In this document: positions 272 through 4,600 of the stretch, in pieces
How the letters are laid out: the number at the start of each line of letters is the position of its first letter
Numbering within the stretch: position 1 is the stretch's first letter
Assembly (NCBI RefSeq): GCF_032362555.1
Contig: NC_083516.1
Span: 1,017,001 to 1,081,000 of the forward strand
Direction of reading: 5' to 3'
From: Amyelois transitella
Lineage: Eukaryota; Arthropoda; Insecta; Lepidoptera; Pyralidae
Length of the DNA stretch: 64,000 nucleotides
Notes under the pieces: model-generated
The model's input: only the letters and a program-made list of their open reading frames with translations
The model's database searches: none
Told to the model about the DNA's origin: nothing
Position numbers and translations under genes: made by a program

Positions 272-1620
272 TTATTGTCGTGCAGCGGGAATGTAGCGGA
301 GAACAGCAACGCTTGTATCATATAGCACACTGGCCGCGTGTGTGCTGTGTCACACGGGCGGCCAGCGGGTCACCTGACGAGCTGCGTGACGAGGTCGCAG
401 GCGCCGCCCACGCCGTGCTGCACGCGCACGGGGTCGTGCAGCGGGAATGTAGCGGAGAACAGCAACGCTTGTATCATATAGCACACTGGCCGCGTGTGTG
501 CTGTGTCACACGGGCGGCCAGCGGGTCACCTGACGAGCTGCGTGACGAGGTCGCAGGCGCCGCCCACGCCGTGCTGCACGCGCACGGGGTCGTGCAGCGG
601 GAATGTAGCGGAGAACAGCAACGCTTGTATCATATAGCACACTGGCCGCGTGTGTGCTGTGTCACACGGGCGGCCAGCGGGTCACCTGACGAGCTGCGTG
701 ACGAGGTCGCAGCTCGTCAGGTGACCCGCTGGCCGCCCGTGTGACACAGCACACACGCGGCCAGCGGGTCACCTGACGAGCTGCGTGACGAGGTCGCAGG
801 CGCCGCCCACGCCGTGCTGCACGCGCACGGGGTCGTGCAGCGGGAATGTAGCGGAGAACAGCAACGCTTGTATCATATAGCACACTGGCCGCGTGTGTGC
901 TGTGTCACACGGGCGGCCAGCGGGTCACCTGACGAGCTGCGTGACGAGGTCGCAGGCGCCGCCCACGCCGTGCTGCACGCGCACGGGGTCGTGCAGCGGG
1001 AATGTAGCGGAGAACAGCAACGCTTGTATCATATAGCACACTGGCCGCGTGTGTGCTGTGTTACACGGGCGGCCAGCGGGTCACCTGACGAGCTGCGTGA
1101 CGAGGTCGCAGGCGCCGCCCACGCCGTGCTGCACGCGCACGGGGTCGTGCAGCGGGAATGTAGCGGAGAACAGCAACGCTTGTATCATATAGCACACTGG
1201 CCGCGTGTGTGCTGTGTTACACGGGCGGCCAGCGGGTCACCTGACGAGCTGCGTGACGAGGTCGCAGGCGCCGCCCACGCCGTGCTGCACGCGCACGGGG
1301 TCGTGCAGCGGGAATGTAGCGGAGAACAGCAACGCTTGTATCATATAGCACACTGGCCGCGTGTGTGCTGTGTTACACGGGCGGCCAGCGGGTCACCTGA
1401 CGAGCTGCGTGACGAGGTCGCAGGCGCCGCCCACGCCGTGCTGCACGCGCACGGGGTCGTGCAGCGGGAATGTAGCGGAGAACAGCAACGCTTGTATCAT
1501 ATAGCACACTGGCCGCGTGTGTGCTGTGTCACACGGGCGGCCAGCGGGTCACCTGACGAGCTGCGTGACGAGGTCGCAGGCGCCGCCCACGCCGTGCTGC
1601 ACGCGCACGGGGTCGTGCAG
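272..1620 (-). repeat. Tandem array of a 156-bp unit derived from a DDX42 exon
   Basis: Eight near-identical units, marked by gtcgtgcagcgggaatg at 277, 433, 589, 832, 988, 1144, 1300 and 1456, run directly into the authentic DDX42 exon, whose matching point is 1612. Spacing is exactly 156 bp except for one 243-bp gap caused by an inverted insert at 711-764. Read on the minus strand, each unit encodes [10 protein letters not shown] joined, with [10 protein letters not shown] missing, to [10 protein letters not shown] and on to LVTQLVR. It then carries the exon's own GTGACC donor and about 55 bp of non-exon sequence. Because 156 is divisible by three, both strands have long open frames; the plus-strand frames are by-products. 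Units at about 1060, 1216 and 1372 share a C-to-T variant, a sign of local homogenisation. Confidence 0.9.
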
Positions 1621-4600
1621 CGCGTCGCGCGCGAGCCGCTCCACGCGCCGCGGGAACGTCGCGGAGAACAGCAGCGCCTGCCGGTCGGGCCGGACGTGGT
1701 TGCATATGCTGCGGACTTGAGGCTCTGTGGACGAACATTTTGACTTTAATACATACTATTGGACAAAGGCAATCTTGAAAGACTGATAGGCCACGTTCAG
1801 CTGTTTGACTGAACGTGGCCTATCAGCTGTTTGGTTCAATGATAGAATTGAGATTTAAATAGTGACAGGTTGCTAGCCCACCACCTAAAAGAAGAATCCG
1901 AAGTTAATATTATATCCCTTTATCGCCTTTTACGACATCAATGGGAAATAGACGGAATGATCTTCTTCTTTTTCTATTGTTGCCAGAAACCACACGGAAC
2001 TAATTGAATAAGAATTGATATAAATTTGTTTGTTTGTAAATATAACAAATTACGAAATAGTTATTGGATTTAGAAGAATATGTACAATGGCGGACTTATC
2101 CCCAATGGGATTTCTTCCAGTTAACCAAAAATTTGCATAATGTTATCGAATATGTATTGGTGGGGAAATGTTAAAAAATTTAGGTTTTATGAAAAAATCT
2201 CTAATCTAATCTCTTTGTTTTAGACCGTAGATAACTCGAATTGCCCGTTTTCGTAGAAAAACATAGTTTGTATGCTGCTGCTGATCCCCAAAGCAGTATT
2301 AGAGCATGCCATTTCAAATTTGAATCTAATGTTATTCCTAAGAAAGTAGTACTATCAAGAAAATCTTATCTTTTACTACTTATAAATATCCACATTTGCC
2401 TGCCGCACATTGGGAAGTGTAAACTTAATGCATTGGGTTTTATTTGCATTTAACAGTAAGTTGTTGATTGTAAACCAGTTAGAAATGGCGGCTAAAGTGC
2501 TATTCACATCATCACAGGTTTCGCTACGGCGGCTCATCTTAAATATTAGTGACGTATCATCTGAAAACAACACGATGCCAGCCTGTTTCTCAATCATGCA
2601 AGGCATGTCGTTCATATATACCAGAAAGAGAAAAGGTCCCAAAATGGAACCTTGTGGTACCCCTATTTTTAACTTCGCTCCTTTCGATTTTGTATTGTTT
2701 AAATCTACCGTCTGTAATCTATCACTAAGATATGATTTAATTAGTTCAACGGCAGTAGTGTCGAACCCGTAATGAGCGAGCTTGAGCAGAAGAGTTCTAA
2801 GATCTACGCAATCAAATGCTTTCTACGCAATCAAATTTGACGGCCTCTGTGGCTCAGCGGTAGTGCGCTTATCTGTGACACCGGAGGTCCCGGGTTCGAA
2901 TCCCGGCCAGGGCATGACAAGAAAAGAACTTTTTCTGATTGGCCTGGGTCTTGGATGTTTATCTATTATATAAGTATTTATTATAAAATATAGTATCGTT
3001 GAGTTAGTATCTCGTAACACAAGTCTCGAACTTACTTCGAGGCTAACTCAATCTGTGTAATTTGTCCTTATTAAAAAAAAAAAAAATATGCTTATAAATG
3101 TGGATGAAGCGAAAGAAGTATGCAGAGTTGGCTGTGCTAGTAACAAGTCGCGTTTTATCGTTGTTTTCTGTAATTATGTGATGCTAATTTCAAACAGGTA
3201 AAATTAAATGGATAACAATATTTCATTGAAAACATATAACTTACCGAAACCCATGTCGAACATCCTATCGGCCTCGTCGAGCACCAAATACGTGACCCTT
3301 TGTAGATTGGTCGCTTTACATTTTATGAGATCAATCACCCTGCCGGGGGTGCCCACTATGATTTCAGCACCACCGCCTTAAAAAAAAAAATATGTAGAGA
3401 TAAAAAAAGGTTTGCCGTGAGGTAATGGTGTGCCGTGTGGTTCCCGGCACCAAAAGAATAGGACCACTCCATCTCTCTCCCGTGGATGTCGTAAAAAACG
3501 ACTAAGGGGTAGGCTTATAAACTTGGAATTCTTCTTTTAGGCGATGGGCTCGCAACATGTCTCTATTTGAATCTCAATTCTATCTTAAAGTCAAATAGCT
3601 GAACGTGGCCTATCAGTCTTTAAAATACTGTTGGCTCTGGCTACCCCGCAAGGGATATAGACGTGACCATATGTATTTATGTATGTTTAAGCTCTCAAGG
3701 ATGAATAATTTTCCCCGTTTTTTTATTTCACATATTCCATTATTTATGCGCTCCTTATAGTTGCAGCGTGATGTTATATAGCCTAAAGCCTTCCTCGATA
3801 AATGGTCTATTCGACGCAAAAAGAATTTTTCAATTAGAACTAGTAGTTCCTGAGATTAGCGCGTTCAAACAATCAAACAAACAAACAAACTCTTCAGCTT
3901 TATAATATTAGTACAGATTTTGTCCAAAATTAAGGTGATAATGAAGAAAAGAACTTACCTTCTAACGCTTTTGTCTGTTCCCATTTAGAACCGCCGCCAT
4001 AGCAGCAAACGCATCTTATATTATACACTTTGCCAAACCTCTTCGCTTCCATATATATCTATACAAAAAAAAACATACAACGATAAGAACAATAAGAGAG
4101 CGTCGATGGTCCAATCGGTAAGGCGCCCGGTTAAAATGGCACAGATTCGAATCCCACTTCGGCCATATACATATGACTATTTTCAAAGTTATGTACATTG
4201 GTTTGAATACTAACCGATGCTTTTACGGTTAGGGAAAACATCGTGAAGAAACCGGCACTTACAGGCAACTGGATGTGTAATAATGATCGATCCAATACGG
4301 ATTATGTTTAGCTGCAAAGGTTGCGGAGGTCAGATGGGAGTCGCTTCGTGTGAAAACCTGACTCGCCCAATACAGGATCCATGGTCAAAGGCATACCCCG
4401 GGCTCCTCTCCAAAGTAGTGAGGATGCTACCGGGACTAAAGCCAAGTGGTAGAAGAAATATCCTAGGATTGATTCTGTTCTAAATTTTGAGTTGCAGATG
4501 TGGCGACACCACTGACGTCACACGCCATCAGCCAATCACGGCAAAACAATACGACGCGCTCAGCCAATAGCAGCGAAGTGTCTGTGTTGACACGTCAAAC

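Follow-up and report, generated by a model that had tools for sequence, protein, structure and literature searches.

An apparently young minisatellite straddling the 3' end of the DDX42 motif III exon in Amyelois transitella

The DDX42 gene

The window analyzed here is a 64,000-nt stretch of the A. transitella assembly GCF_032362555.1 (contig NC_083516.1, positions 1,017,001 to 1,081,000), and its minus strand carries a helicase gene of which nine exon pieces are readable, from 11125 to 1555. When five of these pieces were joined and compared with the PDB, the best match was DDX42 (E = 6.8e-106), and the top three chains were all DDX42 (8dpe, 8hk1 and 7evn, E 6.8e-106 to 3e-105). The next family was DDX46, at E 2.6e-74, and the Pfam DEAD domain was present in the joined exon pieces. 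Judged by sequence similarity, the helicase gene is DDX42, which is ahead by a wide margin among the solved DEAD-box proteins. The motif III exon is the last DDX42 exon piece found within the window, and the remaining exons are taken to lie beyond its left edge. The two exons nearest to the array described below are as follows.

3246-3374, minus strand: codons of the upstream DDX42 exon (DEAD motif), which served to set the reading frame
1553-1724, minus strand: DDX42 motif III (SAT) exon, with the acceptor AG before 1724 and the donor after 1553; its frame agrees with that of the upstream exon

Anatomy of the array

A tandem array lies at the 3' end of the motif III exon and is made up of the following parts.

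277-1620, minus strand: the whole tandem array, consisting of seven 156-bp periods, one 243-bp period and a 9-nt partial period
1495-1552, minus strand: start of the downstream intron, 58 nt, opening with the donor GTGACC and amplified with each unit; presumably original intron
1456-1494, minus strand: exon-derived insert of 39 nt, with 30 nt that match the exon at 26 of 30 bases, followed by CTGCACGAC after a 30-nt in-frame gap
1300-1338, 1144-1182, 988-1026, 832-870, 589-627, 433-471 and 277-315, minus strand: further copies of the insert
598-840, minus strand: aberrant unit of 243 bp, 87 bp longer than the regular unit, with a second sense donor at 685

Minisatellites have units of roughly 10-200 bp in arrays of a few kb or less. 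The array, with eight head-to-tail periods over 1.34 kb, has the size and arrangement of a minisatellite. Each regular 156-bp period consists of 68 nt of exon end (1620-1553), 58 nt of intron start (1552-1495) and 30 nt of insert (1494-1465). This composition agrees with the original prediction that 156-bp tandem units adjoin a genuine DDX42 exon (1553-1724) and that the array grew out of the exon-intron junction. The prediction also placed eight units of 156 bp downstream of the exon. There are indeed eight periods, but one of them measures 243 bp, and the units are not wholly outside the exon, as the first period takes in the exon's own 3' half (1553-1620).

The seven regular periods have a single variable site (G/A), and the variant is common to three adjacent periods, as expected of recent local duplication. 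The array unit is also GC-rich, with 66% G+C compared to 37.5% in the window.

Several other repeats were observed in the window. An abundant SINE-like repeat of about 250 bp is found at 1-251 and in many other places (51 BLAST pieces including the query, the other 50 at 69-94% identity). One copy of this SINE-like repeat is found some 25-30 bp past the end of the array, a partial one is located upstream of the motif III exon (1823-1990), and pieces of the repeat's end recur in an 81-bp tandem repeat of 2.9 copies at 63563-63800. In gene sense, the DDX42 exon piece 7316-7155 is closely followed by a perfect ATG trinucleotide run of 25.7 copies (7067-7143). On the plus strand, a tRNA-like sequence at 2843-2914 (tRNA-His by ARAGORN, Rfam tRNA 36.7 bits) is possibly the head of a tRNA-derived SINE, and it adjoins a minus-strand reading frame (2822-2379) which we presume to be that of a reverse transcriptase. 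An Rfam search of the whole window at gathering thresholds gave a single match, a tRNA outside the array.

Coding potential

The original prediction described the array as a coding minisatellite whose 52-codon modules never break frame, and neither description survives read-through of the donors. At each of the nine donors, a TGA comes directly after VTQLVR in the exon frame, and neither of the remaining frames passes through any of the eight periods without at least one stop. A coding (exonic) tandem repeat is therefore rejected, as read-through meets stops in all three frames of every period. An added cassette exon is rejected as well, since a unit on either side of the exon shifts the frame. 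The array very probably adds nothing to the protein.

Splice donors and acceptors

As predicted, there are nine identical sense donors (CAG/GTGACC) on the gene strand, at 1552, 1396, 1240, 1084, 928, 772, 685, 529 and 373, and competition between donors is therefore possible. Use of the first donor would give the normal mRNA, and use of a later donor would include the in-frame TGA and probably lead to nonsense-mediated decay. Apart from such competition, the units might act as alternative exons or decoy donors which regulate the splicing of DDX42 motif III. This reading is consistent with the nine identical donors, and with a unit exon of 112 nt that starts from the AG at the unit's GCGGCCAG and could replace the motif III exon in the right frame. 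The AG concerned scores -0.3 bits, compared to -1.1 for one of the true acceptors when left out of the model. Additionally, the 243-bp unit as RNA is predicted to form a very stable stem (z = -16.3), which is because of the inversion that it contains.

However, most of the true acceptors score above the array. The acceptor model was based on six acceptors of the DDX42 gene, with piece e_g excluded as its acceptor is unclear. The true acceptor of the motif III exon scored 6.0 bits, a value reached by 76 of the 3494 AGs on the strand, while the best AG of the array scored 0.9 bits, a value reached by 1284 of the 3494. When the seven true acceptors were left out in turn, they scored 4.6, 3.8, 1.8, 3.5, -1.1, 5.8 and 6.0 bits, which means that six of the seven (1.8 to 6.0) are above all 50 AGs of the array. 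Even so, this model on six sites separates poorly, as the range of the true acceptors (-1.1 to 6.0) overlaps the scores of 14 of the 50 array AGs, up to the best at 0.9, and the array may thus hold a usable acceptor.

The context of the units also argues against their regulated use. The 20 nt leading up to the AG that the unit exon needs are devoid of T, and replacement of the exon would lose HVRPDR together with a further ten residues; addition would shift the frame and extension would meet TGA, as described above. Furthermore, the regular unit folds no better than shuffles (z = -0.90), and structured RNA in the regular unit is thus not supported. Under the acceptor model, replacement of the exon by a unit is unlikely, and regulated use of the units is judged unlikely as well; for a role of the units in regulating motif III splicing, we see only a very slim chance.

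Source of the insert

The 30-mer of the insert, CAAGCGTTGCTGTTCTCCGCTACATTCCCG, is identical to the exon sequence CAGGCGCTGCTGTTCTCCGCGACGTTCCCG at 26 of 30 bases, and none of 5000 shuffles gave an equally good alignment. All four differences are silent, in accordance with the original prediction that the 5' part of the unit differs from the exon only silently, in Q, L, A and T codons. The alignment likewise confirms that ten exon codons are missing in frame from the units: the exon's next 30 nt are absent after the 30-mer, and CTGCACGAC comes next.

From these silent differences, the prediction suggested that the founder came from a constrained, diverged coding source. This holds in so far as chance is unlikely, since four out of four random substitutions in a copy would all be silent with P 0.004-0.009 (three assumed transition biases, over the 30 nt). 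It does not amount to proof of a constrained donor, since P is about 0.04 if the exon later changed silently while the insert drifted freely. We favor a diverged coding source for the insert as a plausible explanation, suggested by four bases of sequence. In that case, the template of the insert may have been a DDX42 copy with a diverged coding sequence (paralogue, retrocopy or introgressed allele) or a related DEAD-box gene, and the array would have grown afterwards. Motif III of DDX6/Me31B also reads LFSATFPL, and DDX6/Me31B is a possible other DEAD-box source.

The only idea that a diverged source competes with is the simpler one of an origin in the neighboring exon itself, and the growth of the array is the same in both cases. 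We consider the chances of a diverged source to be about even. The silent pattern and the close match to the exon speak for it, but the differences are only four, and the sequence 5' of the insert is without similarity to the exon. The window outside the exon and array also gave only an 11-base match to the insert, which is at chance level (E 0.36).

Relatives of the insert were also looked for in other collections. Among viral contigs, 85 pattern matches were obtained and none was confirmed, in a collection that was not expected to hold one, and the insert peptide as a degenerate pattern had no matches in the viral contigs, where none was expected. A 23-base word had no exact matches in prokaryote genomes, and none was expected here either.

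Two further candidates for exon-derived sequence around the array were rejected. A remnant of a complete older exon duplicate does not fit, as shuffles resemble the 5' part of the exon just as well as the stretch located 5' of the insert does (1065 of 2000 as good). For the 45 nt located 3' of the array, 100 of 2000 shuffles were as good, and the similarity to the exon rests on the 8-base match CGTTCCCG. As this match sits at the edge of the SINE-like repeat, the 45 nt are not counted as exon homology.

GC content of the exon

In the motif III exon, 53 of 56 third positions (95%) are G or C, which is the highest value among the nine DDX42 exon pieces in the window, the others having 23-75%. 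The other eight pieces pooled have G or C at 240 of 425 third positions (Fisher P 2.4e-9 compared to the motif III exon), and the next richest piece has 43 of 57 (P 0.007). Additionally, at all four positions where the two differ, the insert has A/T and the exon G/C. The GC-rich third positions and the pattern of these four bases allow a different reading of the insert, namely that it is a fossil of the exon's older codons, and that the exon was later driven to 95% GC at third positions by GC-biased gene conversion centered on the minisatellite as a recombination hotspot. However, G+C drops to 0.39 at 1725-1800, directly upstream of the acceptor, and the third-position GC of the DDX42 exon pieces ranges widely, from 0.23 to 0.95. 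As four bases are also few, we find conversion of this kind very doubtful.

Growth of the array

The unit boundaries are marked by an 11-bp word, of which two copies are the probable founders of the array.

1612-1622, minus strand: CGCTGCACGAC, 11 bp, in the exon; putative first founder direct repeat
277-287, minus strand: CGCTGCACGAC, terminal copy at the far array edge; putative second founder direct repeat

The gene strand of the window has nine copies of CGCTGCACGAC, and the other strand has none. Every copy marks a unit boundary, from the one in the exon to the terminal one at the array edge, and the array thus has short direct repeats where the founder repeats of a minisatellite are expected. 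With the amplification removed, two copies of CGCTGCACGAC remain, 156 bp apart from start to start. One is in the exon and the other closes the insert, so that the 156-bp period would result from slippage between the two copies or from their unequal exchange.

The proposed history starts 58 nt into the intron with the arrival of 39 nt of exon-homologous sequence, made up of motif III codons and CTGCACGAC, after which CGCTGCACGAC would be present twice on one strand, 156 bp from start to start. The 156 bp would then be duplicated, either through slipped-strand synthesis or because the two words exchanged unequally, and further slippage, exchange and conversion of the kind that is ordinary in repeats would bring the array to eight periods.

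Template switch within the 243-bp unit

The 243-bp unit contains an inverted copy of part of the array, which was absent from the original prediction.

708-764, plus strand: perfect inverted copy of 57 bp within the 243-bp unit, with microhomologies of 8 bp and 5 bp at its ends

The two ends of the 243-bp unit, of 84 nt and 115 nt, match the regular unit at 442-597, and the perfect 57-bp reverse complement lies between these matching ends and overlaps them. One overlap is the 8-bp CTGGCCGC, which makes up one arm of a short hairpin within the intronic portion, and the other is the 5-bp CTGCG. Together with its partner at 642-698, the inverted copy can fold into a stem of 57 bp closed by a 9-nt loop. 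A perfect reverse-complement copy of this kind, where one switch and one return explain the junctions, has the form of a template-switch mutation. The third step of the proposed history would accordingly take place in one unit, where the polymerase may have jumped to the complementary template at the 8-bp hairpin arms CTGGCCGC...GCGGCCAG, using it for up to 57 bp before going back to the original one at CTGCG.

As near-identical GC-rich copies are hard to assemble and fold-back chimaeras occur in long reads, one might suspect that the assembly produced the array falsely, or that it got the exact copy number and the inverted piece wrong. However, a variant common to three adjacent units is the kind of trace left by replication errors, as is an inversion flanked by microhomology on both sides, and the founder words are found precisely at the array edges. 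An artefact is therefore very improbable in our judgment, and the array is very probably real.

Collectively, these results make it likely that the array is a young, non-coding minisatellite which takes in the 3' end of the DDX42 exon and the first part of the intron that follows. The anatomy, the founder words at both edges, the microhomologies, the near-identical units and the stops are read directly from the sequence, and from these we infer the order of events, the recency and the lack of function. It counts against this explanation that slippage itself gives no account of the silent-only pattern of the insert.

Comparison with known systems

Minisatellites are reportedly born at short direct or non-contiguous repeats, a view attributed to Haber and Louis in 1998 and to Taylor and Breden in 2000. 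Slippage or recombination models of this birth are outlined in one account (PMC2820488). The DDX42 array is like minisatellites born at direct repeats in that two 11-bp repeats set one period, and in being GC-rich, with near-identical units and a length of less than 1.5 kb. Unlike the known cases, one of the founder repeats is inside a coding exon here, and part of the exon and its splice donor were therefore amplified with the unit.

Short-range template-switch mutations (TSMs) have also been described (PMC8794818; PMC7954356). The inversion in the 243-bp unit resembles these in being a nearby reverse-complement copy which one event explains and which forms a perfect hairpin, here bounded by microhomology. 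It differs from other template-switch mutations in that the scar lies within one minisatellite unit, and 57 bp is long for the class; the largest TSM-like pattern mentioned in one of these accounts, of up to 59 bp, failed the quality control of that study (PMC8794818). Lastly, intronic VNTRs which alter splicing are reported to exist (PMC8096271), and the array is similar to intronic VNTRs as a tandem repeat reaching into an intron beside a splice site. Compared to those that alter splicing, the likeness is one of position, as read from a single sequence.

In the search listing of the literature, no exon-derived intronic minisatellite with a splice donor was found, and by title, no exon/intron minisatellite or tandem duplication of this sort was found in Lepidoptera. 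The literature listing for DDX42 in Lepidoptera gave nothing beyond work on odorant-binding protein.

The array looks like an ordinary young minisatellite which was seeded at an exon edge and is well preserved, with a template-switch scar. It provides a clean and readable case of an exon edge seeding a minisatellite, where the probable founder repeats are still visible and a template switch has been preserved inside. It also calls for caution with gene predictors, as the array resembles extra exon copies and yet is stopped in every frame on read-through. If the insert did come from a second DDX42 copy, or if the exon was subject to GC-biased conversion, the locus would be a small and testable case of a minisatellite shaping the adjoining coding sequence.
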